NCBI RefSeq assembly: GCF_004210375.1 | Contig: NC_134834.1 | Location: 152,429,009-152,493,008, forward strand | DNA length: 64,000 bases | Direction: 5' to 3' | From: Tachypleus tridentatus | Lineage: Eukaryota > Arthropoda > Merostomata > Xiphosura > Limulidae | Shown: positions 1-28,559 of the stretch, one piece after another | How positions within the stretch are numbered: the stretch's first letter is position 1 | Layout: each line of letters opens with the position of its first letter | The notes under the pieces: model-generated | The model's input: only the letters and a program-made list of their open reading frames with translations | The model's database searches: none | What the model was told of the DNA's origin: nothing | Made by a program: the position numbers and the translations under genes

Positions 1-1093
1 CCTAACAAATTCATACATTTTAATATATGGTGTCTGAAAAATTGTGTTTTCTTACAAATCCATACATTTTATGTATTGGTGTCTTTAAATGATCGTGTTT
101 TCTAACAAATCCATACATTTTCTTACATGGTATCTAAATGATTTTGTTTCCTAACAAATCCATAATTTTTTTATATATTGGTGTCTTTAAACGATTGTGT
201 TTCCTAACAAATCTATGCTTTTAAATATGGTGTCTGAATTATCGTGTTTTTAAAAATCCACACATTTTTTTATATTTGTGTCTTTAAATGATCGTGTCTT
301 CAAACAAATCCATACATATTTATATATGGTGTCTGAATGATCTGTGTTTCCTCACAAATTCATCTATTTTTATGTATTGGTGTATTTTTCTGGTCATGTT
401 TCCTTACAAATCCATCTATTTTTATGTATTGGTATCTTTATCTGGTCATGTTCCCTCACAAATCCATACATTTTTTATATATGGTGTCTGAATGATTGTG
501 TTTCCTAACAAATTCATACATTTTAAATATGGTGTCTGAATGATCGTGTTTCCTAACAAATCCATACATTTTTATGTATTGGTGTCTTTTAATGATCGTG
601 TTTTTTAACAAATCCATACATTTTCTTACATGGTATCTCAATGATCGTGTTCCTAACAAATCCATATTTTTTTTTATATATTGGTGTCTTTAATGATCGT
701 GTTTCCTAACAAATCCATACATTTTTATATATGGTGTCTCAATGATTGTGTTTCCTAACAAATCCACATATTTTTGTATATTCTTGTCTTTAAATGATCA
801 TTTTCTCTAACAAATCCATACTTTTTTTAAATATGGTGTCCAAATGATCGTGTTTCCTTACAAATCCATCTATTTTTTATGTATTGGTGTCTTTATCTGG
901 TCATGTTTCCTTACAAATCCATCTATTTTTTATGTATTGGTGTTTTTATCTGGTCATGTTTCCTTACAAATCCATACATTTTTTATATATGGTGTCTGAA
1001 TGATTGTGTTTCCTAACAAATTGATACATTTTAAATATGGTGTCTCAATGATCGTGTTTTCTAACAAATCCATACATTTTTATGTATTGGTTT
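1..1093. repeat. 3' tail of a higher-order repeat unit
   Basis: This stretch aligns monomer by monomer with about 8,776-9,860, the last fifth of the full unit. The odd monomers occur in the same order: the GAAAAATTGTG variant near 40, the TTAAACGATTGTG variant near 190, and the GATCGTGTCTTCAAAC variant near 300. It ends at the same junction seen at 9,861, where TGTATTGGTTTCTTTT meets ATAATCGTGTTTCCTACAAA. The window therefore begins partway through a unit. Confidence 0.8.
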
Positions 1094-4000
1094 CTTTTAT
1101 AATCGTGTTTCCTACAAATCCATACATTTTTTATATGTGGTGTCTCAATGATTGTGTTTCCTAACAAATTCATACATTTTTTTACATATCGTGTCTCAAT
1201 GATTGTGTTTCCTAACAAATCCACATATTTTTTTGTATATACGTGTCTTTAAATGATCGTGTTCTCTAAAAAATCCATACTTTTTTTTAAATATGGTGTC
1301 TGAAATGATCGTGTTTTCTCACAAATCCATCTATTTTTATCTATTGGTGTCTTTATCTGGTCATGTTTCCTTACAAATCCATAATTTTTTAAAATGGTGT
1401 CTGAATGATCGTGTTTCCTAACAAATCCATAATTTTTAAAATGGTGTCTGAATGATCGTGTTTCCTAACAAATCCATACATTTTTGATATGTCGTGTCTC
1501 AATGATCTGTGTTTCCTAACAAATTCATATATTTTTTACATATCGTATCGCAATGATTGTGTTTCCTAACAAATCCATATATTTATTGTATATTCACGTC
1601 TTTAAATGATCGTGTTCTCTAAAAAATCCACACTTTTTTAAATATGGTGTCTCAATCATTCTGTTTCCTAACAAATTCATACATTTTAAATATGGGTGTC
1701 TGAATGATCGTGTTTCCTTACAAATCCATAATTTTTTTATATATTTGTGTCTTTTTAATGATCGTGTTTCCTAACAAATCCATTCATTTTTTTATATATG
1801 GTGTCTTAATGATTGTGTTTCCTAACAAATTCACACATTTTTTGTATATTCGTGTCTTTAAATGATCTTGTTTTCCAACAAATCCATTCTTCTTTTAAAA
1901 ATGGTGTCCATGTTCTCCAACAAATCCATTCTTCTTTTAAAAATGGTGTCCAAATGATCGTCTTTCCTTACAAATCCATCTATTTTTATGTATTGGTGTC
2001 TTTAACTGGTCATGTTTCCTAACAAATCCATACATTTTTATATATTGGTGTCTTTTAATAATCGTGTTTTTAACAAATCCATACATTTTTTAAATATGGT
2101 GTCTGAATGATTGTGTTTCCTAACAAATTCATACATTTTAAATATGGTGTCTGAATAATCATGTTTCCTTACAAATCCATAATTTTGTATATATTGGTGT
2201 CTTTTAATGATCGTGTTTCCTAACAAATCCATACATTTTTTTATATATTGTGTCTCAATGATTGTGTTTCCTAACAAATCCATACATTTTTTACATATTC
2301 GTGTCTTTAAATGATCTTGTTCTCCAACAAATCCATTCTTTTTCTAAATATGGTGTCCAAATGATCGTGTTTCCTCACAAATCCATATATTTTTACGTAT
2401 TGGTGTCTTTACCTGGTCATGTTTCCGTACAAATCCATAATTTTTTAAATATGGTGTCTGAATGATCGTGTTTCATAACAAATCCATACATTTTAATGTA
2501 TTGGTGTCTTTAAATGATCGTGTTTTCTCACAAATCCATACATTTTCTTATATGGTATCTGAATGATCTTAATTTTTTACAAATCCATAATTTTTTATAC
2601 ATTGGTGTCTTTTAATGATCGTGTTTCCTAACAAATCCACATATTTTTTTATATTCGTGTCTTTAAATGATCGTGTTCTCTAACAAATCCATACTTTTTT
2701 AAATATGGTGTCTAAATGATCGTGTTTCCTCACAAATCCATCTATTTGTATCTATTGGTGTCTTTATCTGGTCATGTTTCCTTACAAATCCATACTTTTT
2801 TAAATATGGTGACTGAATGATCGCGTCTCCTGACAAATCCATACATTTTTATGTATTGGTGTATTTAAATGATCGTGTTTTCTCACAAATCCATACATTT
2901 TCTTACATCGTACCTGAATAATCGTAATTCCTAACAAATCCATAATTTTTAAATATCGAGTTTGAATTATCGTGTTTCCTAACAAATCCATACATTTTTA
3001 TATGTGATGTCTGAATAATTGTGCTTCCTAACAAATTCATACATTTTAAATTTGGTGTCTGAATGATCGTGTTTCCTCACAAATACATAAATTTTTATAT
3101 GTTGGTGTTTTTTAATGATCGTGTTTCCTAACAAATTCATACATTTTTATATATGGTGTCTCAATGATTGTGTTTCAAAACAAATCCAGATATTTTTATG
3201 TATTGGTGTCTTTATCTGGTCATGTTTCCTTACAAATCCATCTATTTTTATGTATTGGTGTCTTTAACGGGTCATATTTCCTAACAAATTGATACATTTT
3301 AAATATGGTGTCTAAATGATCGTGTTTCCTAACAAATCTATACATTTTAATGTATTGGTGTCTTTTAATAATCGTGTTTTTTAACAAATCCATACATTTT
3401 TTAAATATGTTGTCTGAATGATTGTGTTTCCTAACAAATTCATACATTTTAAATATGGTGTCTGAATAATCATGTTTCCTTACAAATCCATAATTTTGTA
3501 TTAATTGGTGTCTTTTAATGATCGTGTTTCCAAACAAATCCATACATTTTTTATATATTGTGACTCAATAATTGTTATTCCTAACGAATCCACACATTTT
3601 TTGTATATTCGTGTCTTTAAATGATCTTGTTCTCTAACAAATCCATTCTTCTTTTAAATATGGTGTCCAAATGATCGTGTTTCCTCACAAATCCATCCAT
3701 TTTTATGTATTGGTGTCTTTACCTGGTCATGTTTCCGTACAAATCCATAATTTTTAAATATGGTGTCTGAATGATCGTGTTTCATGACAAATCCATACAT
3801 TCTAATGTATTGGTGTCTTTAAATGATCGTGTTTTCTCACAAATCCATACATTTTCTTACATGGTATCTGAATGATTTTAATTCTTCACAAATCCATAAT
3901 TTTTATATATTGGTGTCTTTTAATGATCGTGTTTCCTAAGAAATCCACACATTTTTTTTTATATTCGTGTCTTTAAATGATCTTGTTCTCTAACAAATCC

Positions 4001-4524
4001 ATACTTTTTCAAATATGGTGTCTTTATCTGGTCATGTTTCCTTTCAAATCCATACTTTTTAAATATGGTGTCCAAATGATCGTCTTTCCTTACAAATCCA
4101 TCTATTTTTATGTATTGGTGTCTTTATCTGATTATGTTTCCTTACAAATCCATCTATTTTTATGTATTGGTGTTTTTATCTGGTCATATTTCCTTACAAA
4201 TCCATACATTTTTATGTATTGGTGTCTTTTAATAATCGTGTTTTTAACACATCCGTACATTTTTTGTACATGGTGTCTCAATGATTGTGTTTCCTAACAA
4301 ATTCATAGATTTTTATATATGGTTTCTGAATGATTGTGTTTCCTAACAAATCCATACATTTTAAATATGGTGTCTAAATGATCCTGTTTCCTAACAAATC
4401 CATACATTTTTATGTATTGGTGTCTTTAAATGATCGTCTTTTGTCACAAATCTATTCATTTTCTTACATCGTATCTGAATAATCGTAATTTCTCACAAAT
4501 TCATAAATTTTTATATATTGGTGT
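1094..4524. repeat. Rearranged, shorter higher-order repeat unit (about 3.43 kb)
   Basis: The 5' part (1,094 to about 2,700) follows the order of 4,525 to about 6,100. The last 150 bases (about 4,380-4,524) match about 8,100-8,250, so the unit is missing its final third. It also carries an internal duplication: the block around 2,040-2,500 recurs around 3,340-3,790, about 1.3 kb further on. Divergence from the two full units is clearly higher than between those two. Confidence 0.7.
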
Positions 4525-7500
4525 CTTTTTATAATCGTGTTTCCTACAAATCCATGCATTTTTGATATGTGGTGTCTCAATGCCTGTGTTTCCTAACAAA
4601 TTCATACATTTTTTTACATATCGTGTCGCGATGATTGTGTTTCCTAACAAATCCATATATTTTTTGTATATTCGCGTCTTTAAATGATCGTGTTCTCTAA
4701 AAAATCCATACTTTTTTAAATATGGTGTCGAAATCATCGTGTTTTCTCACAAATCCATCTATTCCTATCTATTGGTGTTTTTATCTGGTCATGTTTCCTT
4801 ACAAATCCATAATTTTTAAAAATGGAGTCTGAATGATCGTGTTTCCTAACAAATCCATAATTTTTAAAAATGGAGTCTGAATGATCGTGTTTCCTAACAA
4901 ATCCATACATTTTTATATCTGGTGTCTGAATGATTGTGTTTCCTAACAAATTCATATATTTTTTTACATATCGTATCGCAATGATTGTGTTTCCTAACAA
5001 ATCCATATATTTATTGTATATTCACGTCTTTAAATGATCGTGTTCTCTAAAAAATCCACACTTTTTTAAATATGGTGTCTCAATCATTCTGTTTCCTAAC
5101 AAATTCATACATTTTAAATGTGGTGTCTGAATGATAGTGTTTCCTTACAAATCCATAATTTTTTTATATATTTGTGTCTTTTAATGATCGTGTTTCCTAA
5201 CAAATCCATTCATGTTTTATATATGGTGACTTAGTGATTGTGATTCCTAACAAATTCACACATTTTTTGTATATTCGTGTCTTTAAATGATCTTGTTCTC
5301 CAACAAATCCATTCTTTTTTTAAAAATGGTGTCCAAATGATCGTCTTTCCTTACAAATCCATCTATTTTTATGTATTGGTGTCTTTAACTGGTCATGTTT
5401 CCTAACAAATCCATACATTTTTTATATATGGTGTCTTTTAATGATCGTGTTTTTAACAAATCCATACATTTTTTTTAAATATGGTGTCTGAATGATTGTG
5501 TTTCCTAACAAATTCATACATTTTAAATATGGTGTCTGAATGAATCATGTTTCCTTACAAATCCATAATTTTTTATATATTGGTGTCTTTTAATGATCGT
5601 GTTTCCTAACAAATCCATACATTTTTTTATATATTGTGACTCAATGATTTTGATTCCTAACAAATCCACACATTTTTTGTATATTCGTGTCTTTAAATGA
5701 TCTTGTTCTCCAACAAATCCATTCTTTTTCTAAATATGGTGTCCAAATGATCGTGTTTCCTCACAAATCCATATATTTTTTTACGTATTGGTGTCTTTAC
5801 CTGGTCATGTTTCCTAACAAATCCATAATTTTTTAAATATGGTGTCTGAATGATCGTGTTTCATGACAAATCCATACATTCTAATGTATTGGTGTCTTTA
5901 AATGATCGTGTTTTCTCACAAAGCCATACATTTTCTTACATGGTATCTGAATGATCTTAATTTTTCACAAATCCATAATTTTTATACATTGGTGTCTTTT
6001 AATGATCGTGTTTCCTAACAAATCCACACATTTTTTTTTATATTCGTGTCTTTAAATGATCTTGTTCTCTAACAAATCCATACTTTTTCAAATATGGTGT
6101 CTTTATCTGGTCATGTTTCCTTACAAATCCATCTATTTTTATGTATTGGTGTCTTTATCTGGTCATGTTTCCTTACAAATCCATACATTTTTATATATGG
6201 TGTCTGAATGATTGTGTTTCCTAACAAATTAATACAATTTAAATATGGTGTCTGAATGATCTTGTTTCATAACAAGTCCATAGATCTTTATGTATTAGTG
6301 TCTTATAATAATCGTGTTTTTTAACAAATCCGTTCATTTTTTATACATGGTGTCTCAATGATTGTGTTTCCTAACAAATCCACACATTTTTTGTATATTC
6401 GTTTCTTTAAATGATCTTGTTCTCCTACAAATCCATTCTTCTTTTAAATATGGTGTCTAAATGATCGTGTTTCCTCACAAGTCCATATATTTTTATGTAC
6501 TGGTGTCTTTATCTGGTCATGTTTCCTTACAATTCCATAATTTTTAAATATGGAGTTTGAATGATCGTGTTTCCTAACAAATTCATACATTTTAAATTTG
6601 GTGTTCGAATGATCGTGTTTCCTCACAAATACATACATTTTTATGTATTAGTGGCTTTAAATGATCGTGTTTTCTCACAAATCCATACATTTTCTTACAT
6701 GGTATCTGAATGATTGTAGTTTTTAACAAATACATAAATTTTCATATGTTGGTGTTTTTTAATGATCGTGTTTCCTAACAAATTCATACATTTTTATATA
6801 TGGTGTCTCGATGATTGTGTTTCCTAACAAATCCACATATTTTTGTATATTCGTGTCTTTAAATGATCTTGTTCTCTTACAAATCCATACTTTTTTAAAT
6901 ATGGTGTTCAAATGATCGTCTTTCCTTACAAATACATTTTTATGTATTGGTGTCTTTATCAGGTTATGTTTCCTTACAAATCCATCTATTTTTATGTATT
7001 GGTGTATTTATCTGGTCATGTTTCCTTACAAATCCATACATTTTTATATATTGTGTCTGAATGATTGTGTTTCCTAACAAATTGATACATTTTAAATATG
7101 GTGTCTCAATGATCGTGTTTTCTAAAAAATCCATACATTTTTATATATGGTGTCTGGAAGATTGTGTTTCCTTACAAATCCACACATTTTTTGTATATTC
7201 GTGTTTTTAAATTATCTTGTTCTGTAACAAATCCATTCTTTTTTTGAATATGGCGTCCAAATGGTCGTCTTTCCTTACAAATCCATCTATTTTGATGTAT
7301 TGGTGTCTTTATTTGTTGATGTTTCCTTACAAATCCATACATTTATATATATGGTGTCTGAATGATTGTGTTTACTAACAAATTGATACATTTTAAATAT
7401 GGTGTCTAAATGATCATGTTTCCTAAGAAATCCATACATTTTTATGTATTGGTGTCTTTTATGATCGTGTTTCCTAAAAAATCCGTACATTTTTCATATA

Positions 7501-9860
7501 TGGTGACTCAATGATTGTGATTCCTAACAAATCTACACATTTTTTGTATAATCGTGTTTTAAATGATCTTCTTCTCTAACAAATCCATTCTTTTTTGAAT
7601 ATAGTGTCCAAATGATCGTGTTTCCTCAAAAATCCATCTATTTTTACGTATTGGTGTCTTTATCTGGTCATGTTTTTTTACAAATCTCTAATTTTTAAAT
7701 ATGGAGTCTGAATGATCGTGTTTCCTAACAAATCCATACATTTTTATATCTCGTATCTGAATGATTATGATTCCTAACAAATTGATACATTTTAAATATG
7801 GTGTCTGAATGATCGTGTTTCCTTACAAATCCTTACATTTTTATGTATTGGTGTCTTTAAATGATCGTGTTTTGTCACAAATCCATACATTTTTATATAT
7901 GGTGTCTGAATGATCGTGTTTCCTAACAAATCCATACATTTTAAATATGGTGTCTAAATGATCATGTTTCCTATCAAATCCAAACATTTTTATGTATTGG
8001 TGTCTTTTAATAATCGTGTTTTTTAACAAATCCATACATTTTTTATATATCGTGTCTCAATGATTCTGTTTCCTTAGAATTTGATACATTTTAAATATGG
8101 TGTCTCAATGATCGTGTTTTCTTACAAATCCATATATTTTTATTTATTGGTGTCTTTAAATCACCGTGTTTTCTCACAAATCCATTCATTTTCTTACATG
8201 GTATCTGAATTATCGTAATTCCTAACAAATTTATAAATTTTTATATATTGGTGTTTTTTAATGATCGTGTTTCCTAACAAATCCATACATTTTTCATATG
8301 TGGTGTCTCAATCATTGTGTTTCCTAACAAATCCACACATTTTTTGTATATTCGTGTCTTTAAATGATCTTGTTCTTTAACAAATCCATTCTTCTTTTAA
8401 ATATGGTGTCCAAATGATCGTGTTTCCTTACAAATCCATATATTTTACTTATTGGTGTCTTTATCTTGTCATATTTCCTTACAAATCCATAATTTTTAAA
8501 TATGGAGTTTGAATGATCGTGTTTCCTAACAAATTCATACATTTTAAATTTGGTGTCTGAATGATCGTGTTTCCTCACAGATATATACATTTTCTTACAT
8601 GGTATCTGAATGATCGTAGTTCTTAACAAATACATAAATTTTTATATGTTGGTGTTTTTTAATGATCGTGTTTCCTAACAAATTCATCTATTTTTATGTA
8701 TTGGTATCTTTATCTGGTCATGTTTCCTTACAAATCCATACATTTTTATATATAGTATCTGAATGATTGTGTTTCCTAAAAAATTCATACATTTTTATAT
8801 ATGGTGTCTGAAAAATTGTGTTTTCTTACAAATCCATACATTTTTATGTATTGGTGTCTTTAAATGATCGTGATTTCTCACAAATCCATACATTTTCTTA
8901 CATGGTATCTAAATGATTTTAATTCCTGACAAATCCATAATTTTTTATATATTGGTGTCTTTAAACGATTGTGTTTCCTGTCAAATCTATGCTTTTAAAT
9001 ATGGCGTCTGAATTATCGTCTTTTTTAAAAATCCACACATTTAACATATTTGTTTCATTAAATGATCGTGTCTTCAAACACATCGATACATATTTATATA
9101 TGGTGTCTGAATGACTGTGTTTCCTCAGAAATTCATCTATTTTTATGTATTGGTGTATTTTTCTGGTCATGTTTCCTTACAAATCCATCTATTTTTATGT
9201 ATTGGTATCTTTATCTGGTCATGTTCCCTCACAAATCCATACATTTTTATATATAGTGGCTGAATGATTGTGTTTCCTAAAAAATTCATACATTTTAAAT
9301 ATGGTGTCTGAATGATCGTGTTTCCTAACAAATCCATACATTTTTTATGTATTGGTGTCTTTAAATAATCGTGTTTTTAACAAATCCATACATTTTCTTA
9401 CATGGTATCTCAATGATCGTAGTTCTTAACAAATACATATTTTTTTATATGTTGGTGTTTTTTAATGATCGTGTTTCCTAACAAATTCATACATTTTTAT
9501 ATATGGTGTCTCAATGATTGTGTTTCCTAACAAATCCACATATTTTTGTATATTCTTGTCTTTAAATGATCATTTTCTCTAACAAATCCATACTTTTTTA
9601 AATATGGTGTCCAAATGATCGTCTTTCCTTACAAATCCATCTATTTTTATGTATTGGTGTCTTTATCTGGTCATGTTTCCTTACAAATCCATCTATTTTT
9701 ATGTATTGGTGTTTTATCTGGTCATGTTTCCTTACAAATCCATACATTTTTATATATGGTGTCTGAATGATTGTGTTTCCTAACAAATTGATACATTTTA
9801 AATATGGTGTCTCAATGATCGTGTTTTCTAAAAAATCCATACATTTTTATGTATTGGTTT
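4525..9860. repeat. Higher-order repeat unit, full copy A (about 5.34 kb)
   Basis: First of two adjacent full units. From about 6,440 to 9,840 it matches copy B at a constant offset of 5,329 bases, and conceptual translations of seven separate segments are identical between the two. The first 1.6-1.9 kb is less similar, and the offset there drifts from 5,336 to 5,329. The unit holds about 105 monomers if 50 bp is taken as the mean. Confidence 0.9.
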
Positions 9861-12800
9861 CTTTTTATAATCGTGTTTCCTACAAACCCATGCATTTTTT
9901 ATATGTGGTGTCTCAATGCCTGTGTTTCCTAACAAATTCATACATTTTTTTACATATCGTGTCGCGATGATTGTGTTTCCTAACAAATCCACATATTTTT
10001 TGTATATACGCGTCTTTAAATGATCGTGTTCTCTAAAAAAATCCATACTTTTTTAAATATGGTGTCGAAATCATCGTGTTTTCTCACAAATCCATCTATT
10101 TCTATCTATTGGTGTTTTTATCTGGTCATGTTTCCTTACAAATCCATAATTTTTAAAAATGGAGTCTGAATGATCGTGTTTCCTAACAAATCCATAATTT
10201 TTAAAAATGGAGTCTGAATGATCGTGTTTGCTAACAAATCCATACATTTTTGATATGTCGTGTCTCAATGACTGTGTTTCCTAACAAATTCATATATTTT
10301 TTACATATCGTATCGCAATGATTGTGTTTCCTAACAAATCCATATATTTTTTGTATATTCACGTCTTTAAATGATCGTGTTCTCTAAAAAATCCACACTT
10401 TTTTAAATATGGTGTCTCAATCATTCTGTTTCCTAACAAATTCATACATTTTAAATGTGGTGTCTGAATGATAGTGTTTCCTTACAAATCCATAATTTTT
10501 TTATATATTTGTGTCTTTTAATGATCGTGTTTCCTAACAAATCCATTCATGTTTTATATATGGTGACTTAGTGATTGTGATTCCTAACAAATTCACACAT
10601 TTTTTGTATATTCGTGTCTTTAAATGATCTTGTTCTCCAACAAATCCATTCTTCTTTTAAAAATGGTGTCCAAATGATCGTCTTTCCTTACAAATCCATC
10701 TATTTTTATGTATTGGTGTCTTTAACTGGTCATGTTTCCTAACAAATTCATACATTTTTATATACTGGTGTCTTTTAATAATCGTGTTTTTAACAAATCC
10801 ATACATTTTTTAAATATGGTGTCTGAATGATTGTGTTTCCTAACAAATTCATACATTTTAAATATGGTGTCTGAATAATCATGTTTCCTTACAAATCCAT
10901 AATTTTGTATATATTGGTGTCTTTTAATGATCGTGTTTCCTAACAAATCCATACATTTTTTATATATTGTGACTCAATAATTTTGATTCCTAACGAATCC
11001 ACACATTTTTTGTATATTCGTGTCTTTAAATGATCTTGTTCTCCAACAAATCCATTCTTTTTCTAAATATGGTGTCCAAATGATCGTGTTTCCTCACAAA
11101 TCCATATATTTTTACGTATTGGTGTCTTTACCTGGTCATGTTTCCGTACAAATCCATAATTTTTAAATATGGTGTCTGAATGATCGTGTTTCATGACAAA
11201 TCCATACATTCTAATGTATTGGTGTCTTTAAATGATCGTGTTTTCTCACAAAGCCATACATTTTCTTACATGGTATCTGAATGATCTTAATTTTTCACAA
11301 ATCCATAATTTTTATACATTGGTGTCTTTTAATGATCGTGTTTCCAAAGAAATCCACACATTTTTTTTATATTCGTGTCTTTAAATGATCTTGTTCTCTA
11401 ACAAATCCATACTTTTTCAAATATGGTGTCTTTATCTGGTCATGTTTCCTTACAAATCCATCTATTTTTATGTATTGGTGTCTTTATCTGGTCATGTTTC
11501 CTTACAAATCCATACATTTTTATATATGGTGTCTGAATGATTGTGTTTCCTAACAAATTAATACAATTTAAATATGGTGTCTGAATGATCTTGTTTCATA
11601 ACAAATCCATAGATCTTTATGTATTGGTGTCTTATAATAATCGTGTTTTTTAACAAATCCGTTCATTTTTTATACATGGTGTCTCAATGATTGTGTTTCC
11701 TAACAAATCCACACATTTTTTGTATATTCGTTTCTTTAAATGATCTTGTTCTCCTACAAATCCATTCTTCTTTTAAATATGGTGTCTAAATGATCGTGTT
11801 TCCTCACAAGTCCATATATTTTTATGTACTGGTGTCTTTATCTGGTCATGTTTCCTTACAATTCCATAATTTTTAAATATGGAGTTTGAATGATCGTGTT
11901 TCCTAACAAATTCATACATTTTAAATTTGGTGTTCGAATGATCGTGTTTCCTCACAAATACATACATTTTTATGTATTAGTGGCTTTAAATGATCGTGTT
12001 TTCTCACAAATCCATACATTTTCTTACATGGTATCTGAATGATTGTAGTTTTTAACAAATACATAAATTTTCATATGTTGGTGTTTTTTAATGATCGTGT
12101 TTCCTAACAAATTCATACATTTTTATATATGGTGTCTCGATGATTGTGTTTCCTAACAAATCCACATATTTTTGTATATTCGTGTCTTTAAATGATCTTG
12201 TTCTCTTACAAATCCATACTTTTTTAAATATGGTGTTCAAATGATCGTCTTTCCTTACAAATACATTTTTATGTATTGGTGTCTTTATCAGGTTATGTTT
12301 CCTTACAAATCCATCTATTTTTATGTATTGGTGTATTTATCTGGTCATGTTTCCTTACAAATCCATACATTTTTATATATTGTGTCTGAATGATTGTGTT
12401 TCCTAACAAATTGATACATTTTAAATATGGTGTCTCAATGATCGTGTTTTCTAAAAAATCCATACATTTTTATATATGGTGTCTGGAAGATTGTGTTTCC
12501 TTACAAATCCACACATTTTTTGTATATTCGTGTTTTTAAATTATCTTGTTCTGTAACAAATCCATTCTTTTTTTGAATATGGCGTCCAAATGGTCGTCTT
12601 TCCTTACAAATCCATCTATTTTGATGTATTGGTGTCTTTATTTGTTGATGTTTCCTTACAAATCCATACATTTATATATATGGTGTCTGAATGATTGTGT
12701 TTACTAACAAATTGATACATTTTAAATATGGTGTCTAAATGATCATGTTTCCTAAGAAATCCATACATTTTTATGTATTGGTGTCTTTTATGATCGTGTT

Positions 12801-15195
12801 TCCTAAAAAATCCGTACATTTTTCATATATGGTGACTCAATGATTGTGATTCCTAACAAATCTACACATTTTTTGTATATTCGTGTTTTAAATGATCTTC
12901 TTCTCTAACAAATCCATTCTTTTTTGAATATAGTGTCCAAATGATCGTGTTTCCTCAAAAATCCATCTATTTTTACGTATTGGTGTCTTTATCTGGTCAT
13001 GTTTTTTTACAAATCTCTAATTTTTAAATATGGAGTCTGAATGATCGTGTTTCCTAACAAATCCATACATTTTTATATCTCGTATCTGAATGATTATGAT
13101 TCCTAACAAATTGATACATTTTAAATATGGTGTCTGAATGATCGTGTTTCCTTACAAATCCTTACATTTTTATGTATTGGTGTCTTTAAATGATCGTGTT
13201 TTGTCACAAATCCATACATTTTTATATATGGTGTCTGAATGATCGTGTTTCCTAACAAATCCATACATTTTAAATATGGTGTCTAAATGATCATGTTTCC
13301 TATCAAATCCAAACATTTTTATGTATTGGTGTCTTTTAATAATCGTGTTTTTTAACAAATCCATACATTTTTTATATATCGTGTCTCAATGATTCTGTTT
13401 CCTTAGAATTTGATACATTTTAAATATGGTGTCTCAATGATCGTGTTTTCTTACAAATCCATATATTTTTATTTATTGGTGTCTTTAAATCACCGTGTTT
13501 TCTCACAAATCCATTCATTTTCTTACATGGTATCTGAATTATCGTAATTCCTAACAAATTTATGAATTTTTATATATTGGTGTTTTTTAATGATCGTGTT
13601 TCCTAACAAATCCATACATTTTTCATATGTGGTGTCTCAATCATTGTGTTTCCTAACAAATCCACACATTTTTTGTATATTCGTGTCTTTAAATGATCTT
13701 GTTCTTTAACAAATCCATTCTTCTTTTAAATATGGTGTCCAAATGATCGTGTTTCCTTACAAATCCATATATTTTACTTATTGGTGTCTTTATCTTGTCA
13801 TATTTCCTTACAAATCCATAATTTTTAAATATGGAGTTTGAATGATCGTGTTTCCTAACAAATTCATACATTTTAAATTTGGTGTCTGAATGATCGTGTT
13901 TCCTCACAGATATATACATTTTCTTACATGGTATCTGAATGATCGTAGTTCTTAACAAATACATAAATTTTTATATGTTGGTGTTTTTTAATGATCGTGT
14001 TTCCTAACAAATTCATCTATTTTTATGTATTGGTATCTTTATCTGGTCATGTTTCCTTACAAATCCATACATTTTTATATATAGTATCTGAATGATTGTG
14101 TTTCCTAAAAAATTCATACATTTTTATATATGGTGTCTGAAAAATTGTGTTTTCTTACAAATCCATACATTTTTATGTATTGGTGTCTTTAAATGATCGT
14201 GATTTCTCACAAATCCATACATTTTCTTACATGGTATCTAAATGATTTTAATTCCTGACAAATCCATAATTTTTTATATATTGGTGTCTTTAAACGATTG
14301 TGTTTCCTGTCAAATCTATGCTTTTAAATATGGCGTCTGAATTATCGTCTTTTTTAAAAATCCACACATTTAACATATTTGTTTCATTAAATGATCGTGT
14401 CTTCAAACACATCGATACATATTTATATATGGTGTCTGAATGACTGTGTTTCCTCAGAAATTCATCTATTTTTATGTATTGGTGTATTTTTCTGGTCATG
14501 TTTCCTTACAAATCCATCTATTTTTATGTATTGGTATCTTTATCTGGTCATGTTCCCTCACAAATCCATACATTTTTATATATAGTGGCTGAATGATTGT
14601 GTTTCCTAAAAAATTCATACATTTTAAATATGGTGTCTGAATGATCGTGTTTCCTAACAAATCCATACATTTTTATGTATTGGTGTCTTTTAATAATCGT
14701 GTTTTTTAACAAATCCTTACATTTTCTTACATGGTATCTCACTGATCGTAGTTCTTAACAAATACATATTTTTTTATATGTTGGTGTTTTTTAATGATCG
14801 TGTTTCCTAACAAATTCATACATTTTTATATATGGTGTCTCAATGATTGTGTTTCCTAACAAATCCACATATTTTTGTATATTCTTGTCTTTAAATGATC
14901 ATTTTCTCTAACAAATCCATACTTTTTTAAATATGGTGTCCAAATGATCGTCTTTCCTTACAAATCCATCTATTTTTATGTATTGGTGTCTTTATCTGGT
15001 CATGTTTCCTTACAAATCCATCTATTTTTATGTATTGGTGTTTTATCTGGTCATGTTTCCTTACAAATCCATACATTTTTATATATGGTGTCTGAATGAT
15101 TGTGTTTCCTAACAAATTGATACATTTTAAATATGGTGTCTCAATGATCGTGTTTTCTAAAAAATCCATACATTTTTATGTATTGGTTTCTTTTA
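9861..15195. repeat. Higher-order repeat unit, full copy B (about 5.33 kb)
   Basis: Second full unit, directly abutting copy A. The few differences visible in the 3' two thirds are single bases and T-run lengths, for example TTTATAAA at 8,230 versus TTTATGAA at 13,560. Similarity to copy A stops just after the TATTGGTTTCTTTT motif near 15,190, which marks the right boundary of the duplication. Confidence 0.9.
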
Positions 15196-18100
15196 ATAAA
15201 CGTGTTTTTTTAACAAATCCGAACATTTTTTATACATGGTGTCTCAATGATTGTGTTTCCTAACAAAATTCATACATTTTTATATATGGTGTCTCAATTA
15301 TTGTGTTTCCTAACAAATTCATACATTTTAAATATGGTGCCTAAATGATCATGTTTCCTATCAAATCCATACATTTTTATATATGGTGTCTCAATTATTG
15401 TGTTTCCTAACAAATTCATACATTTTAAATATGGTGTCTAAATGATCATGTTTCCTATCAAATCCAAACATTTTCTTACATGGTATCTGAATGATCGTAG
15501 TTCCTAACAAATCCAAAAATTTTTATATATTGGTGTTTTTTAATGATCGTGTTTCCTAACAAATTATTAAATTTTTATATATGGTGTCTCAATGATTGTG
15601 TATCCTAACAATTAAACACATTTTTTACATATTGTGTCTAAATGACAGTTTTTCCTCACAAATCCATCTATTTTTATGTATTGGTTTCTTTATTTGGTCA
15701 TGTTTCCTAACAACTTCATACATTTTAAATATGGTGTCTGAATGTTCGTATTTCCTGACAAATCTATGCATTTTTTTACATGGTGACTCAATGATTGTGA
15801 TTCCTAACAAATCCACACATTTTTTGTATATTCGTGTCTTTAAATGATCTTCTTCTCTAACAAATCCATTCTTTTTTTAATATAGTGTCCAAATGATCGT
15901 GTTTCCTCAAAAATCCATCTATGTTTACGTATTGGTGTCTTTATCCTGTCATGTTTCTTAACAAATCCATAATTTGTAAATATGATGTCTGAATGATTGT
16001 GTTTCCTAACAACTTCATACATTTTAAATATGGTGTCTGAATGATCGTGTTTCCTGACAACTCCATAAATTTTTATATTTTGGAGTCTTGTAATGATTCT
16101 GTTTCGTAACAAATCTATCATTTTTTTACATATCGTGTCTCAATGATTGTGTTTTCTAACAAATCCACACATTTTATACATTCGTGTCGATAAATGATCG
16201 TATTTTCTAAAAAATCCATACATTTTTCTGTATGGTGTCTGAATGATTGTGTTTCATAACAAACCCATACCTTTTTATATATTTTAGTCTTTAAATGATC
16301 GTTTTTCCTAACAAATCCATATTTTTTAAATATGGTGTCAGAATGATCGTATTTGTTAACAAATCCATACATTTTATGTATTGGTCTCTTTAAATGATCA
16401 TCTTTCTTCACAAATCCGTACATTTTTATATATTAGTGTCTTTAAATAATCGTGTTTCCTAACATATACATACATTTTTATATATGTGTCTTTAAATAAT
16501 CGTGTTTCCTAACAATACATACATTTTTATATATTGGTGTCTTTAAATAATCGTCTTTCCTAACATATACATACATTTTTATATATTGGTGTCTTTAAAT
16601 GATCGTGATTTTTGACAAATGTATACATTTTTATATTTAGATGTCTTTAAATGATCGCCTTTCCTAGCAAATCCATACGTTTTTATATGTTGGTGTCTTT
16701 AAACGATTGTGTTTCCTGTCAAATCTATACTTTTAAATATGTCGTTTGAATTATCGTGTTTTTTTTAAATCCACACATTTAACATATTTGTTCCATTAAA
16801 TAATCGTGTCTTCAAACACATCGATACGTATTTATATATAGTGTCTGAATGACTGTGTTTCCTCACAAATCCATCTATTTTTATGTATTTGTGTCTTTAA
16901 ATTATCGTGTTTTCTCACAAATCCATTCATTTTCTTACATGGTATCTGAATGATCTTAATTCCTAACAAATCCATAAATTTTTATATATTGGTGTCTTTT
17001 AATGATTGTGTTTCCTAACTAATCCATACATTTTTTGTATGTTCGTGTCTTTAAATGATCGTGTTCTCTCACAAATCCATATTTTTTTTAAATATTGTAT
17101 CCAAATGATCGTCTTTCCTCACAAATCCATCTTTTTTTATGTATTGGTGTCTTTATCTGGCCATGTTTCCTTACAAATCCATCTATTTTTTATCTGTTGG
17201 TGTCATTATCTGGTCATGTTTCCTTACAAATCCATAATTTTTAAATGTGGATTCTGAAAGATCATGTTTCTTAACAAATTCATACATTTTAAATATAGTG
17301 TCTGAATAATCATGTTTCCTAACAAATCCATACATTTTTTTGTATTGGTGTCTTTAAATGATCGTGTTTTCTCTCAAATTCATTCATTTTCTTACATGGT
17401 ATCTGAATGATCGTAATTCCTAACAAATCCATAAATTTTTATATATATTGGTGTTTTTTAATGATCGTGTTTCCTAACAAATCCATAAATTTTCATATAT
17501 ATTGGTGTTTTTTAATGATCGTGTTTCCTAACAAATCCATACATTTTTATATATGGTGTCTGAATGATTGTGTTTCCTAACAAATTCATACATTTGAAAT
17601 ATGGTGTCTGAATGATCGTGTATCCTCACAAATCCATACATTTTTATGTATTGGTGTCTTTCTCTGTTCATGTTTCCTAACAAATCTATAATTTTTTTAC
17701 ATATCTTGTCTCAATGATTGTGCTTCCTAACAAATCCACACATTTTATACATTCGTGTCTATAAATGATCGTGTTTTCTAAAACATCCATACGTTTTTCT
17801 CTATGGTGTCTGAATGAATGTGTTGCATAACATACCCATACATTCTTTTCATGATGTCTGAATGTTCGTAATTCCTAACAAATCCATAAATTTTTATATA
17901 TTCCTGTTTTTTAATGATCGTGTTTCCTAACAAATCCATACATTTTTATATATGGTGTCTAAATGATCGTGTTTCCTCTCAAATTCATCTATTTGTATCT
18001 ATTGGTGTCTTTATCTGGTCATTTTTTCCTAAAAATCCATACATTTTTATGTATGGTGTTTCAATGATTGTATTTCCTAACAAACCCATACATTTTTATA

Positions 18101-21100
18101 TATTTTTGCCTTTATATGGTCGTGTTTCCTAACAAATCCATACATTCTTTTACATTATGTCTGAATGTTCGTAATTCCTAACAAATCCATATATTTTTAT
18201 ATATTGGTGTCTAAATTATCGTGTTTTCTAACAAATCAATATTTTCTAAATATTGTGTCTGAATGATCGTATTTCCTAACAAATTCATACATTTTACGTA
18301 TTGGTGTCTTTATATGATCATGTTTCCTAACAAATCCATACATTTTAAATATGGTGTCTGAATGATCGTGTTTCCTCACAAGTCCATACATTTTTATGTA
18401 TTGGTGTCTTTAAATGATCGTGTTTTCTCACAAATCCATACATTTTCTTACATGGTATCTGAATGACGGTAGTTTTTCAGAAATCCATAAATTTTTCTAT
18501 AGGGGTGTTTTTTAATGATCGTGTTTCCTAACAAATTCATACATTTTTATATATGGTGTCTCAATGATTGTGTATCTTAACAAATAAACACATTTTTTAC
18601 ATATTGTGTCAAAATGACAGTGCTTCCTCACAAATCCATCTATTTTTATATATGGTTTCTGAATGATTGTGTTTCCTAACAAATTCATACATTTTAAATA
18701 TGGTGTGTGAATGATTGTGTTTCATAACAAACCCATACATTTTTATATATTTTTGCCTTTATCTGATCATGTTTCCTAATAATCCATAATTTTTAAATAT
18801 GGTGTCTGAATGATCGTGCTTCCTAACAAATCCATACATTTTTATATATGGTTTCTGAATGATTGTGTTTCCTAACAAATTCATACATTTTAAATATGGT
18901 GTGTGAATGATTGTGTTTCATAACAAACCCATACATTTTTATATATTTTACTCTTTAAATGGTCGTGATTCCTAACAAATCCATGCATTCTTTTGCATGA
19001 TGTCTGAATGATCGTAATTCCTAACAAACCCATATATTTTTATATATTGGTGTCTTCAAGTGATCGTGTTCCCTAACAAATCCATACTTTTTAAATATGG
19101 TGTCTGAATGATCGTATTTCATAAAAAATCCATTCATTTTATGTATTGCTATTTTTAAATTATCGTGTTTTCTCACAAATCCATTTATTTTCTTACATGG
19201 TATCTGAATGATCGTAATTTTTAACAAATCCATAAATTTTTATATATTGGTGTCTTTTAATGATTGCGTTCTCTAACAAATTCATACATTTTTTACATAT
19301 CGTATCTCAATGATTGTGTTTCCTAACAAATCCACACATTTCTACATGATGTCTGAATGTTCGTAATTCCCAACAAATCCACATATTTTTATATATTGGT
19401 GTCTTTCAAAGATCGTGCTTCCTAACAAATCCATACATTCTTATATATGGTGACTGAATGATTGTGTTTCCTAACAAATTAATACATTCTTTTACATGAT
19501 GTCTGAATGTTCGTAATTCCTAACAAATCCATTTATTTTTATATACTGGTGTCTAAATTATCGTGTTTTCTAACAAATGAATATTTTCTGAATATGGTGT
19601 CTGAATGATCGTATTTCCTAACAAATTCGTACATTTTACGTATTGGTGTCTTTAAATGATCATGTTTCCTAACAAATCCATACATTTTAAATATGGTGTC
19701 TGAATGTTCGTGTTTCCTCACAAATCCATACATTTTTATGTATTGGTGTCTTTAAATGATCGTGTTTTCTCACAAATCCATACATTTTCTTACATGGTAT
19801 CTGAATGACGGTAGTTTTTAAGAAATCCATAAATTTTTATATAGTGGTGTTTCTTAATGATCGTGTTTCCTAACAAATTCATACATTTTTATATATGGTG
19901 TCTCAATGATTGTGTATCCTAACAAATAAACACATTTTTTACATATTGTGTCAAAATGACCGTGTTTCCTCACAAATCCATCTATTTTTATCTATTGGTG
20001 TCTTTATCTGATCATGTTTCCTAATAATCCATAATTTTTAAATATGGTGTCTGAATGATCGTGTTTCCTAACAAATCCATACTTTTTTATATATGGTGTC
20101 TGAATGATCGTGTTTCGTAACATATCCACATATTTTTATATATTGGTATTTTTAAATCATCATGTTTCCTAACAAATCCATACTTTTTAAATATGGTGTC
20201 TCAATTGTCGTGTTTTCTAACAAATCCATACATTTTATGTTTTGGTATCTTTAAATTATCATATTTTCTAACAAATCCATACATTTTTGTTTATTGGTGT
20301 CTTTAAATGATCGTGGTTCCTGACAAATCCATACATTTTATGTATTGGTGTCTTTAAATGATAATGTTTCCTAACAAATCCATACATTTTTATATGTTGA
20401 TGTCTTCAAATGATCGTGTTTTTTACAAATTTATACATTTTTATATAAAGGTGTTTTAAATGATTGTGTTTTTAACAAATTTATACATTTTTATATATAG
20501 CCGTCTTTAAATGATCGTGTTTCATAACAAATCCATACATTTTTATATATTGGTGTATCTGAATGATGGTATTTCCTGACAAATCTGTTTATTTTACATA
20601 TTGGTGTCGTTAAATGATCGTGTTTCCTAACAAATTCATACATTTTTATGTATTGGTGCCTTTAAGTGATCGTGTTTCCTTGCAAATCCATATTTTAAAA
20701 ATATATATAATAAACGTATGGTATCTAAATGATCGTGATTCCTGACAATTCCGTACATTTTTCTATATTGGTGTCTTTAAATGATCGTGTTTCCCATCAT
20801 ATCCATACATTATTTTTGTATGGTGTCTGAATGATTGTGTTTCCTAACAAATCCACACATTTTTTGCATATTCGTGTCTTTAAATGATCGTGTTCTCTAG
20901 CAAATCCGTACTCTTTTAAATATGGTGTCCAAATGATCGTGTTTCCTCACAAATCCATCTATTTTTATGCATTGGTGACTTTAAATAATCGTGTTTCCTA
21001 CCAAATCCATTCTTTTTTAAGTATGGTGTCTAAATGATCGTGTTTCCTGATATATCCATACTTTCAAATATGGTGTCTGAATGATTGTGTCTCCAAACAA

Positions 21101-22640
21101 ATCCATACATTTTTATATATTGATGTGTTTAAATGATCGTGTTTTTAACAAATTTATACATTTTTATATATTGGTGTCTTTAAATAATCATGTTTCCTAA
21201 CAAATCCATTCTTTTCAAATATGGTTTCTGAATTATCGTGTTTCCTAACAAATCCATACATATTTATGTATGGTGTCTGAATGATTGTGTTTTCTAACAA
21301 ATCCACACATTTTTATACATTCGTGCCTATAAATGATCGTGTTTTCTAAAAAATCCATACATTTTTATGTATGGTGTCTGAATGATTGTGTTTCCTAACA
21401 AACCCATAGATTTTTATATATTGGCGTCTTTAAATGGTCGTGTTTCCTAACAAATCCATACTTTTTAAATATGTGGTCTGAATTATCGTGTTTCCTGACA
21501 TTTCCATTTATTTTTATGTGTTGGTGTCTTTAAATAATCGTGTTTTCTAACAAATCCATGCATTTGTATGTATTGGTGTTTTTAAATGATCGTTTTTCCT
21601 AACAAATCCATACTTTCTAAATATGGTGTCTAAATGATCGTGTTTTTGACAAATCCATACTTTTTTATGTAAGATGCCAATACATGGTCCTGTTTCCTAA
21701 CAAATCCATATATTTTTATATATTGTGTGTCTGTAAATTATCGTGTTTCCTAACAAATCCATACTTTTTAAATATGGTGTCTGAATGATCGTGTTTCGTA
21801 ACATATCCACATATTTTTATTTTTGGTATTTTTAAATCATCATGTTTCCTAACAAATCCATACTTTTTAAATATGGTGTCTCAATTGTCGTGTTTCCTAA
21901 CAAATCCATACATTTTATGTATTGGTATCTTTAAATGGTCATGTTTCCTAACAAATCCATACATTTTTGTTTATTGGTGTCTTTAAATGATCGTATTTCC
22001 TAACAAATCCATACTTTTTAAATATGGTGCCTAATGATCGTTTTCCCTAACAAATCCATACTTTTTAAATATGGTGTCTAATGATCGTTTTTCCTAACAT
22101 ATCCATACATTTTATGTATTGGTGTCTTTAAATGATAATGTTTCCTGACAAATCCATACATTTTTATATGTTGGTGTCTTTAAATGATCGTGTTTCCCAA
22201 CAAATCCAAACCTTTTGGTATATTGGTTTCTATGAATGATCGTGTTTCATTACAAATCCATATATTTTTTATATTGGTTTCTTTAAATGATCATGTTTCC
22301 TAACAAATCCATTCATTTTTATATATTAGTGTCTTTAAATGATCGTGTTTCATTACAAATCCATACATTTTTGTGTATTGGTGTCTTTAAATGATCGTGT
22401 TTCCTAACAAATCCATACTTTTTAAATATAATGTCTAAACGATCGTGTTTCCTGACAAATCCATGCATTTTTATATAAGATGCCTTTAAATGATCGTGTT
22501 TCCTAACAACTCCATTCATTTTTATATCTGATGTCTTTAAATTATCGTGTTCCCTGATGAATCCATTGTTATTTTTTTTCTATGGTGTCTTTAATTGATT
22601 TTCATCCTAACAAAGCCTTATATTTTTTTTTCTTGGATCT
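15196..22640. repeat. Diverged satellite flank with smaller internal duplications
   Basis: The same monomer family continues but without the 5.3-kb order. Local duplications are visible: about 18,137-18,840 recurs at about 19,483-20,070 (offset near 1,345, with a deletion of roughly 0.1 kb), and about 20,085-20,300 recurs at about 21,758-21,985. Near 16,430-16,600 there are short runs of a monomer variant containing AACATATACATACATTTTTA. Point divergence rises towards the right, and the last recognisable monomers (22,540-22,690) are badly degraded. Confidence 0.8.
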
Positions 22641-22689
22641 TTGAATTTTTTTTCCCTAGTAAATCAAATAAGTTTATATTTCTGTTGCT

Positions 22690-22954
22690 TTAAAATTATT
22701 TTTTTATTCTTCCATCAGAACCAGAAATTTCTACTTCCAGTGTGTTTTAGCATCTATGACGTGCAATAAAAAGTGACACTAACTTGAACGTGTATTTTCC
22801 ACGAACCAATATAAAGATAGTTGAAGAAGTGCTTCCGCGGACTTCAAAAATTTAGCAGGAAGCAAAGAACTATTGTCTTAAAGAATTCTGTAATAATTAA
22901 AAACTTAATTTTTGTTTTATCGTAATAACAGAATTTACTATTTCTATTTATTTT
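22690..22954. other. Non-repeat spacer right of the satellite
   Basis: Unique-looking AT-rich sequence between the decayed satellite edge and the first SINE. I see no open frame with coding character and no recognisable element. Confidence 0.4.
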
Positions 22955-23056
22955 TGCTAACATTGGGCTGTCTGAGCTCTATTCACTAAAGGGAATCGAA
23001 CACTGAACTTAAGCGTTGTAAATCCGTCAGTTTCTACTGATCCACCGAGGGACATT
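22955..23056 (-). mobile_element. tRNA-derived SINE (type B), minus strand, degraded
   Basis: Read on the minus strand it has a tRNA-like head: TGGATCAGTAG (A-box-like), ACGGATTTACAACGCTTAAG, then TTCGATTCCC (B-box-like). The short tail contains CTCAGACAGCCCAATGT. It matches the copies at 38,911-39,024 and 49,434-49,547 in order and wording. The 5' and 3' ends are approximate. Confidence 0.7.
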
Positions 23057-23059
23057 TAC

Positions 23060-23790
23060 AACTCTAAATATGTGATATGTTTTTGCACCTTTTTAAATAT
23101 ACAAATCAATATAGATATAATTACAATTTTGTTTTGTAAATATAAATGCTTCGCTAATATCAATTGCTCTTGTTCTGAATTCATGTCTCTCTCTTTGATT
23201 GCGTGTTTTTATTTTTGTATCAGTTTATTTACGGTTTTCTCTGTTTCCTATATTTTAACAACACTTTGTTTTTCTTTGTTTATTTTATTCTATCAAGCTT
23301 TCACTGATGTCGTTATTGTTATTTTTTACTGTGTATAACCTCTATCTTCTCTTTGTATTACCGCTCATTATTCATTCACACCATTTTTTCTCTCTCTCTT
23401 TCTCTTTAGTTTTTCTTGTTGATGTTTGTCAAGTTCCAGTTACAAAGGAGTTGCTAAAACTCGAGGATAATAATCACAGTTAATGATGAATAGTCTGAAT
23501 TATAACAGGCAAATTGCAAAATTTATCTAAGATCACTCCGTTCTTGGTCACCAGAGTGTCTTCAGCCCTCAACCTAAGAGCATCTAACAGGATTGGGCTT
23601 AGTGATATTGACAAGTACCGAAGTAGAATTTTTACATGGAAAGTCTTTAGTACCAAGTCTCTGTTCTATCTTCAGTCTCTGGTTAAATACTGGTTTTATA
23701 TTTTTTTATCTCCAGGTTATATTTGTTTTCCGTTGTTCAATTTTTACTGTTGACACTTTTAATAATTTGGGTTTCCGTCTTTTTACATTT
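23060..23790. other. T-rich sequence, no gene recognised
   Basis: The plus-strand open frames here (for example 23,072-23,338) translate to F/L/I/C-rich low-complexity sequence driven by the T-rich composition. No splice or family signature was recognised. Confidence 0.4.
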
Positions 23791-23794
23791 TTAT

Positions 23795-24030
23795 TTTTAC
23801 TGATCAGATGTGGTCTGTGAATCAGAGGGTCAACAGTTAATGTCCCGTTGTCTCAAAAATACGCCCAACACATTAGGGCCGTTGATGGGTCATAAACAAG
23901 ACATTCAAGTTACAATATTCGATTAGAATAATCTAATGGTAAGCAGTGGGCACTGTTAGTTAGCTTCCTTCCATCTAGTACACTGGTTCAATGTCGGGGA
24001 CGACTACACACACGTAACCCGTTAGGGGCG
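23795..24030 (+). mobile_element. SINE type A, strongly degraded copy
   Basis: The order of type A landmarks is kept despite heavy divergence. A B-box region lies near 23,825 (CAGAGGGTCAACAG), a remnant of the central CGTTATAATGTGAC block near 23,885, an ATATTCGATTAG block near 23,915, and GTTAGCTTCCTTCCATCTAG near 23,958 in place of the usual GACTAGCTGCCTTCCCTCTA. It is probably one of the oldest copies in the window. Confidence 0.5.
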
Positions 24031-24039
24031 ACTACACAT

Positions 24040-25535
24040 ACGTAACCCGTTTTTTAACTTGTTTAATCTTATGGTGGAAATACTTCAGCGCTTTAAGTTT
24101 CTGTTTCTTTATCCACAGCTCAGTTTCTTAGTCAACTTTGTTCATCATTTATAATTGTGTTTATAATTGCGTTTTTCACATTATTTTCTTTTAATGCCTT
24201 GCGTTAACATTTTATTTATTACTACAGCGATTCTGTTTTTAATTTTTTTTTTGTTTATGAGTTTTACAGTTACTGTACTTCAACCTTTTTGTCATTTTGT
24301 GTCGACCTCTCCCTATTGGTAATATGTATGCTTTATCCTTTCTCTCTATTACGCTCTACTTCCCTCAGTCCAATCCACGTCTTCCTTTCGCTAATCGCCT
24401 CTTATGTAAGAGATAAATTGACAATGGATCAGTGGGTCACAGTTGTATTATCTTCTTGGGCTGATCATCGAAGTATGTTCCATCATGATGCGGAAACAAG
24501 TCATTGTCGTGACACGTGAGGAACAAAGAGCTGTAATTGGTAATGGAATATCATCTCTTCTTTCATTCTTCTTTAATGTAAAGCTGGTTTTGCTATTTTA
24601 TCTCCCAGTTTATCACATTCTATCATCCCTTTAATGCTCTAAATTAATGAAGAATGGTTAATGCTCATTTAGGAATAAATTCGCATTAATCTTCGTCTTA
24701 AGCAGCGAAATATAAATTTACTGTTGAAACGCGAAAGTCAAAGGAAAAATTGTCAATAATTCAAAGGTTAATATATGTAAATAGGGAGAGAGAGTATGGG
24801 AAGAGGCAGACATGTTATAAATTAGCATGAAAGCTACATACCTGGAACTTCGGTGACATTTTTGGAGTATTAATATATTTTACGTCTTTATTTATTGAGA
24901 CTTCGAATTATAAACTGATTGATTTTTAACTGATTAATTTAATTAAATAACTACTTATTCTAGAAAAATAAATTTATACAATGTTTCATTTTTACAGCTT
25001 TTGTAGGAGCGACCTCTTCACTTGGACGAATAAACTCACAAACGTTGTGAAAATGTGAAAAATATAAATTTAAAACTTTGTCACTATCGTATTTAGGCTA
25101 ATACATATTTATATTTATGACAAAGCAAGTACCACCGTTCATAATCCCGATCCAGAAGGAAAACGTTCAGTCAGCATCACCCTACTACCCACCATTTAAG
25201 TAACGGAATTGACTATAACTCTGATAACACACCTTGCTCCGGATTCATAGCTCTAACACAGGCCCAACTCGCATCCGTATGTAGGCTAAATACGTTCAAC
25301 ACGAAAATGGCAACATGCATATAAACCCCATTTTAAAACTCAACCATACAATATTCTCACTAAATAAGTGAAGTACAATGCGCCAACTTCCAGCGTCTTA
25401 GTTTTGTGCCCTAAATTATACTCGGGTGTGTATAAAGTATACATAGCCTAGATAACACGATATTTCGCGCTAGTTTATAAATAAATATGATTCTGAAAAC
25501 TGAACTATTTAATTGAAAGCGAGCAGCAAAAGAAG
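24040..25535. other. Intergenic, no gene recognised
   Basis: AT-rich sequence. The frames at 24,289-24,519 and 24,443-24,634 overlap in different frames and show no domain or repeat signature. Nothing else was recognised. Confidence 0.4.
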
Positions 25536-25539
25536 AAAT

Positions 25540-25792: not shown

Positions 25793-26038
25793 AACAAACG
25801 AATAAACACAGTTTTAGTCTATTTTCGTTTTAGACCTGATTTGACGTTAAAATCAAATTATAACGGCATATACCTATGGGTCTATCTTGGCTGTTTGAAA
25901 CTTAATAAATAAATTGAAAATTAATTACATGTAAAATTGTAAACCGGTCCCTGTCATTAATTTACTTATCAAGCTTTCTTTTAAACACACTTAATTTTAC
26001 TCTCTCTGTAATATCCAAAAACAATCCATTTCAAGAGC

Positions 26039-26310: not shown

Positions 26311-26319
26311 CATTTCAAA

Positions 26320-27570: not shown

Positions 27571-27579
27571 AATTTGTTT

Positions 27580-28265: not shown

Positions 28266-28271
28266 TTTGGC

Positions 28272-28553: not shown

Positions 28554-28559
28554 ATCGTA

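Follow-up and report, generated by a model that had tools for sequence, protein, structure and literature searches.

A 106-monomer double block in a 50-bp satellite of Tachypleus tridentatus, probably formed by exchange between misaligned blocks at a single locus

Introduction

The window analysed here, a stretch of 64,000 nucleotides from the horseshoe crab Tachypleus tridentatus (assembly GCF_004210375.1, scaffold NC_134834.1, written below as C10:152429009-152493008), opened in a satellite array of ~50-bp monomers in which two adjacent blocks of 5.33 kb were nearly identical. The question raised by this locus was how such a long block came to be present twice: by one recent duplication, by a false duplication in the assembly (both considered in the original prediction, which was made from the sequence of the window), or by a process that acts on the array as a whole. 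The answer we propose is that the array was probably a single-locus satellite of ~75 kb evolving by in-register exchange of misaligned blocks, and that it was most likely present in the assembly as two haplotypes. We refer to the array in the window together with its left continuation as locus A, and to a second array on the same scaffold as locus B. Positions without a prefix are those of the window, and the genome searched was this assembly, whose 205 contigs or scaffolds total 2.167 Gb. Its gene content pointed to a horseshoe crab, probably T. tridentatus: the coagulin family PF02035 matched it at 19 places but matched none of 14 control genomes, and the last exon was identical at 47 of 47 aligned residues to coagulogen 1aoc, a T. 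tridentatus protein of a type that is not known outside horseshoe crabs.

Results

The double block and its divergence

Tandem Repeats Finder (TRF) reported one array over positions 1-22566 with a period of 52 and 448 copies, and wrap-around alignment yielded 449 monomers, of which 447 measured 46-54 bp. As the original prediction had said, neighbouring monomers differed widely, on average by 12.6 edits per ~50 bp, or about 75% identity. The best monomer offset was 106, at which 107 consecutive monomers (4495-9831 versus 9831-15160) were paired with a mean edit distance of 0.5; the diagonal score at this offset was 748.5, compared with maxima of 14-19 in five shuffles of the monomer order. Thus, the two blocks were indeed adjacent, nearly identical and collinear monomer for monomer, and each held 106 monomers, close to the predicted number of about 105. 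We call these unit copies U2 and U3. At the base level the homology extended over about 4524-9865 in the left copy and about 9860-15194 in the right one, which placed the junction between them at 9860-9865. The organization was that of a higher-order repeat (HOR): monomers inside the unit were clearly divergent (~75% identity between neighbours), whereas the units were nearly identical and kept the same monomer order. Two full 106-monomer copies followed each other, and an older, nearly complete copy lay in a longer period of 174-176 monomers.

The similarity of U2 and U3 was uneven along their length. The offset between them was 5336-5338 bp initially, fell stepwise to 5329 at 6031 and stayed constant afterwards, save for 5328 between 9341 and 9373. 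A fixed offset of 5,329 with few base changes had been predicted for 6,440-9,840; in that interval there were only 5 substitutions and 2 one-base indels. Over 4524-6031 (1,508 bp) we counted 32 differences (21 substitutions and 11 indels), while the remaining 3,834 bp (6032-9865) had 9 (7 substitutions and 2 indels). The first 1.5 kb therefore carried about nine times as many differences per base (Fisher p = 4e-11), so U2 and U3 were a mosaic: very recent copying was limited to about 3.8 kb, whereas the beginning of the units (1.5 kb, called S below) was older than the sequence that follows it. Accordingly, the predicted very recent duplication of a long block applied to about 3.8 kb of the unit and not to its beginning. 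Either of the two 3.8-kb stretches (6032-9865 or 11361-15194) may have served as the source of the other. Inside the unit, monomers at 6477-7124 represented an older internal duplication of monomers located 54 monomers away.

Older copies upstream and the proposed exchange

The double block was not an isolated event: an older 8.8-kb period with the same unit was found directly upstream of it. This period consisted of a block R, the unit, and then the first 34 unit monomers again (S). Two matches defined it, namely C10:152425280-152430833 with 152434058-152439595 (111 monomers, 110-111, at offset 174) and C10:152422755-152425031 with 152431639-152433905 (46 monomers at offset 176), both with mean edit distances of 2.0-2.5. 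The second match contained the older copy of R and the first unit monomers. Within the window this layer was represented by the end of an older unit copy (U0) and by an older S copy (S') that matched unit monomers 0-33, one extra 42-bp partial monomer at 1878-1919 aside, after which the match stopped. U0 differed from U2 and U3 by 3.0-6.0% substitutions depending on the region. A monomer-by-monomer list showed both the R-to-unit and the unit-end-to-S junctions in the older copy, and the passage from U0 to S' at 1064 was the same unit-end-to-start junction as at 9860. The hybrid junction monomer at 9831 was 2 edits from its older counterpart at 1064, which itself was separated by 5 edits from the outer monomer at 4495 and by 7 from the one at 15160. 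Since both junctions recurred in an older copy diverged by several per cent, those of U2 and U3 were unlikely to be assembly errors, and the false duplication of one unit suggested originally became improbable: if 9860 were a chimeric join, one would hardly expect such a diverged counterpart to exist.

The fall in U2-U3 divergence took place at 6032-6297, i.e., at unit monomers 29-34, and the match of the older S copy ended at monomer 33. Because these two positions coincided, we propose that units were made by exchange between two S copies, either by unequal crossing-over or by break-induced copying. In this scheme the older 8.8-kb period would first have brought two S copies close enough to exchange. 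S3, the copy that follows the unit and now lies at the start of U3, would then have exchanged with S2, the copy at the start of U2, near unit monomers 29-34, and a new copy of the 3.8 kb that comes next would have resulted. The monomer register was kept in the array, which was consistent with in-register exchange. In a 0.9-kb alignment, S3 differed from S2 by 1.54%, from S' by 2.42% and from U0 by 5.97% substitutions, and S2 differed from S' by 3.18%.

Alternatively, U2 and U3 could be two old units that were homogenised over 3.8 kb by gene conversion, with no fresh duplication. The sharp change of divergence at 6032-6297 resembled the edge of a conversion tract, as did a patch of 5 differences at 9341-9413. 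However, conversion needs a complete second unit beforehand, and the S copy of the older period led into R rather than into the rest of a unit. Thus, we regard this explanation as unlikely.

The proposed exchange of misaligned monomer blocks would not be restricted to this unit. We counted as block-duplication pairs those of at least 10 monomers with a mean edit distance of at most 2.5, a threshold that gave 0 pairs in one shuffle per piece. There were 62 such pairs: 1, 32 and 8 in the three pieces of locus A (A1, A2 and A3, where A3 is the window's array plus 7.9 kb to the left of the window) and 21 in locus B. The offsets among those listed included 18, 19, 28, 36, 61, 88, 106, 117, 124, 154, 157 and 174 monomers, and the 106-monomer block was the longest head-to-tail instance of this general process. 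The original prediction held so long a higher-order structure to be unusual for an arthropod satellite; the analysis covered this single locus, within which long block repeats were frequent. In-register homologous exchange between misaligned blocks would then account for the turnover of the array, with the 5.33-kb double block as one recent product. Locus B contained its own HOR of 19 monomers (~970 bp) in about five head-to-tail copies at C10:156253517-156258509, and this repeat was not found head to tail in the pieces of locus A.

An apparently single locus in two versions

The whole array of locus A occupied C10:152372978-152451607, with about 76.5 kb of satellite in the three pieces, which were separated by a ~1.6-kb insert and by a 500-N gap at C10:152420589. 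Locus B was located 3.87 Mb away on the same strand and scaffold (C10:156243015-156315741, 72.7 kb), and there was no gap in the 150 kb fetched around it. A 34-base monomer pattern, allowing at most 1 mismatch, matched the genome at 167 places, each of them on the plus strand. The same pattern occurred 78 times in locus A and 89 times in locus B as fetched, and the genome-wide places among the matches listed were all in A or B. Since the two counts add up to all 167 matches, the satellite family appears to be confined to one locus and its second version, although a single-pattern search of this kind would miss strongly diverged arrays or arrays absent from the assembly.

The flanks of the two loci were nearly identical. 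On the left, A and B were 99.4% identical over 15.8 kb and over 8.2 kb; on the right, the identities were 98.9% (1.4 kb), 98.4% (13.5 kb) and 97.5% (3.6 kb). A 401-bp flank probe had 2 matches in the genome, one at each locus. The homology began at C10:152345577, the first base after a gap (in the left contig), and ended at window position 40528, three bases before the next gap. Beyond that gap, positions 41032-64000 gave no match to locus B at an expectation value of 1e-30 (about 26 kb of B beyond the homology was covered), so the window may join two contigs that are not true neighbours. In the left flank (C10:152357137-152372900) there were 48 mismatches in 15,791 columns, about 0.3%.

Because the flanks were near-identical to B and the homology stopped at N-gaps, the 48.5-kb contig with the double block and its left neighbour are most likely a retained alternative haplotype of locus B, broken into two contigs. 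The divergence of the flanks, near-allelic up to the contig-end gaps, was what is expected of a haplotig, and a retained haplotig is likely to be the actual assembly problem at this locus, different from the one first suspected. Collinearity of the interiors was only partial (264 of 1,518 monomers); it is usual, but not strictly required, for a haplotig, and the loss could be explained by a fast-changing satellite. A and B would thus be two haplotypes of one locus, both of which were retained in the assembly.

The interiors of the arrays had changed much more than their edges. Measured in 250-bp steps, substitutions between A and B amounted to 0-2.8% along the flanks, usually <1%; they climbed within the first kilobase of the array, and the alignment was lost 1.3-2.5 kb inside. 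When the unit was searched against B at a minimum of 88% identity, the best long match was 88% over 1.17 kb, with shorter pieces of up to 94.6%. The longest run of monomers shared by A3 and B was 19, at the right edge, and inside the unit it was 12 (among the best 15 of 35 runs). Head-to-tail block pairs in B had offsets of 12, 18, 19, 28 and 38 monomers, and the 106-monomer block was absent among them. Nevertheless, a collinear chain of 29 blocks (the 264 monomers mentioned above, mean edit distances 1.1-4.8) connected the two arrays, and none of three shuffles reached the threshold for a collinear run. Additionally, monomers of A3 most resembled those in the right part of B (3.37 edits on average to the nearest monomer) and were more distant from A2, A1 and the left part of B (4.06, 5.52 and 5.64); samples were of equal size, and B was split at 156275000 by choice. 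Based on the chain and on these nearest-relative distances, A and B appear to descend from one ordered array that was later reshuffled.

It was also conceivable that A and B arose by genuine segmental duplication and lie 3.87 Mb from each other on one chromosome, their arrays having since evolved independently. Their location on one scaffold in equal orientation agreed with this, and array interiors far more diverged than the flanks might be expected of two independent loci. On the other hand, the homology ran from the first base of the left contig to the gap after the window's contig, while B was gap-free over its 150 kb, and one event does not predict flanks as unequal as 48 mismatches in 15,791 columns and 179 in 13,535. 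The divergence was also comparable in size to reported heterozygosity, about 0.65% in T. tridentatus (PMC6390705) and 0.8% in Carcinoscorpius (PMC7210998), the left flank lying below these values and the right one at about twice. Therefore, we consider a segmental duplication improbable, a little more so than gene conversion.

An assembler that traversed one unit twice was very unlikely to have produced the second unit: the later 3.8 kb had only 9 differing sites, which could be polishing errors, and the contig starts in the array at a locus with another contig problem, but the 32 differing sites in the first 1.5 kb meant that the copies did not come from one read set, both unit junctions recurred upstream, and B, with the head-to-tail offsets and the best long match given above, could not have lent the unit.

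Features of the window

The coordinates of the features are collected in Table 1.

Table 1. Features of the satellite array and its right flank in the window
Feature	Position in window	Strand	Remark
Array of ~50-bp monomers, right-hand part	1..22566	+	TRF, wrap-around alignment, upstream bases
End of older unit copy U0, unit monomers 85-105	5..1063	+	Remainder left of window, from about C10:152424627
S', older copy of unit monomers 0-33, directly follows U0 end	1064..2832	+	
Block R, upstream of unit	2631..4523	+	First 0.2 kb overlaps S' end
Unit copy U2, 106 monomers	4524..9859	+	
Recent 3.8-kb copy, paired with 11361-15194	6032..9865	+	9 differences
13 monomers like unit monomers 93-105 (9179-9830)	6477..7124	+	Mean edit distance 3.5
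U2/U3 junction inside hybrid monomer 9831-9881	9860..9865	+	Monomer register kept
Unit copy U3, 106 monomers	9860..15194	+	
Recent 3.8-kb copy, paired with 6032-9865	11361..15194	+	
Further block duplication, 10 monomers, copies at 18132 and 19474	18132..19971	+	Copies 27 monomers apart
Flank homologous to locus B	22600..40528	.	97.5-98.9%, three main alignments
500-N scaffold gap; locus B homology ends here	40532..41031	.	

TRF also listed a 101-bp period for the window's array, and short and long monomers alternated more often than expected (0.68 versus 0.50). A strict two-monomer register was rejected as the main structure, since monomers two apart were hardly closer than neighbours (mean edit distances of 12.35 and 12.62). 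A coding function was rejected as well: the longest stop-free stretch of the array was 114 residues. The AA/TT periodicity of the array had a ~50-bp period with weaker peaks near 20 and 30, and a profile search for monomers elsewhere in the window reported none.

Outside the window, array A contained about 1.6 kb of non-satellite DNA at C10:152384569-152386209. It opened with a short AAACT-type repeat, and by eye apparent 13-base target-site repeats were visible at its edges; perhaps it was a truncated retroelement. The array of locus B had no break of 300 bp or more and seems to lack a counterpart of this insert.

In the right flank, three SINE-like (short interspersed element) repeats with a tRNA-like start were recognized by eye at 26040-26320, 28270-28540 and 32490-32750, the second of which matched several sites in locus B at 91-94%; ARAGORN called no tRNA in the window. 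Four near-identical 52-bp tandem repeats (98% match) at 29729-29940 were similar to the satellite in length and unlike it in sequence. At 36706-37636, about 26 tandem copies of a 36-bp repeat contained an open frame of 253 residues; the A-B alignments overlapped there, which suggests a difference in copy number between A and B.

Discussion

Several observations weighed against a single-locus satellite with two haplotypes that turns over by exchange. A single crossover between identical sister chromatids predicts an S after U3, but the sequence beyond 15194 was different and had only about 3 monomers with a weak resemblance to S; the scheme therefore requires a further step or another partner. 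Support for pairing S3 with S' was weak (22 versus 29 substitutions in about 911 bases). The older copy was uneven: five successive monomers were identical at the R-to-unit junction, around which the same 46-monomer match averaged 2 edits per monomer. The contig with the block was short and started inside the array. If A and B are alleles, the turnover in the array must far exceed that in the flanks, given that the unit's best long match in B was 88% over 1.17 kb. Finally, the right flank (24024-37539) had 179 mismatches in 13,535 columns, about 1.3%, or about twice the heterozygosity reported for the species (PMC6390705). The inequality of the flanks would be in keeping with recombination across the array, or with two contigs that differ in history.

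With these points considered, we still favour exchange between misaligned blocks at one locus. With somewhat less confidence, we lean towards reading the two arrays as the two ~75-kb satellite haplotypes of one animal, with flanks 98-99% identical, interiors rebuilt, and the 106-monomer HOR on one haplotype only. The mechanism would be an ordinary one of a known kind, and it is the locus that would be new and informative. Its main new points were that a second array has near-identical flanks and that the family is apparently restricted to a single locus; in a search of a limited paper collection, none of the papers listed was, by its title, about a horseshoe-crab satellite, and novelty is claimed only within that scope.

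The origin of HORs has mostly been inferred from very large arrays, and a locus of ~75 kb is within the reach of ultra-long reads. Here the old 8.8-kb period, the short repeated S segment and the fresh 3.8-kb copy were visible together, and two versions of the array were assembled. If these are two haplotypes, satellite turnover, including the birth of an HOR, could be read from one diploid genome between shared edges. Both versions appear to have been kept in the assembly, which calls for caution with depth and copy-number tests here: a retained haplotig would give half depth at both A and B throughout, whether the block is genuine or not.

Hypervariable minisatellites are single loci of short variant monomers in which the order of the variants changes between conserved flanks. 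The array studied here resembled them: one 34-base probe with at most one mismatch pointed to a single locus, and, if A and B are alleles, these would differ in internal structure between conserved flanks. It differed in its length of about 73-77 kb, which is longer than is usual for minisatellite alleles, and in the copying of blocks of more than 100 monomers.

The array behaved as HORs and variable human centromeres do: in human alpha satellite, too, blocks of divergent monomers are copied as units (PMC11062924). Between two human genomes, the reported single-nucleotide variation of centromeres was at least 4.1-fold that of the unique flanks, and 45.8% of the centromeric sequence was not reliably alignable because of newly arisen HORs (PMC11062924). 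In contrast to that system, the monomer here was about 50 bp instead of 171 bp, there was one ~75-kb locus instead of megabase centromeres and only two consecutive full units. Among arthropods, the report on Tribolium madens describes a short ancestral unit (about 110 bp) that was likewise amplified through HORs, and nearly 38% of the genome is said there to derive from one progenitor sequence (PMC13081366), unlike the horseshoe crab monomer probe, which was confined to one locus and its second version. As in reported haplotype-type false duplications (PMC9516828, PMC8081667), a region was present twice in the assembly, probably with both haplotypes kept, but here this concerned locus A as a whole and not the 5.33-kb unit. 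With its one locus of 50-bp monomers, the array, which may need no function, seems closer in kind to a very long minisatellite.

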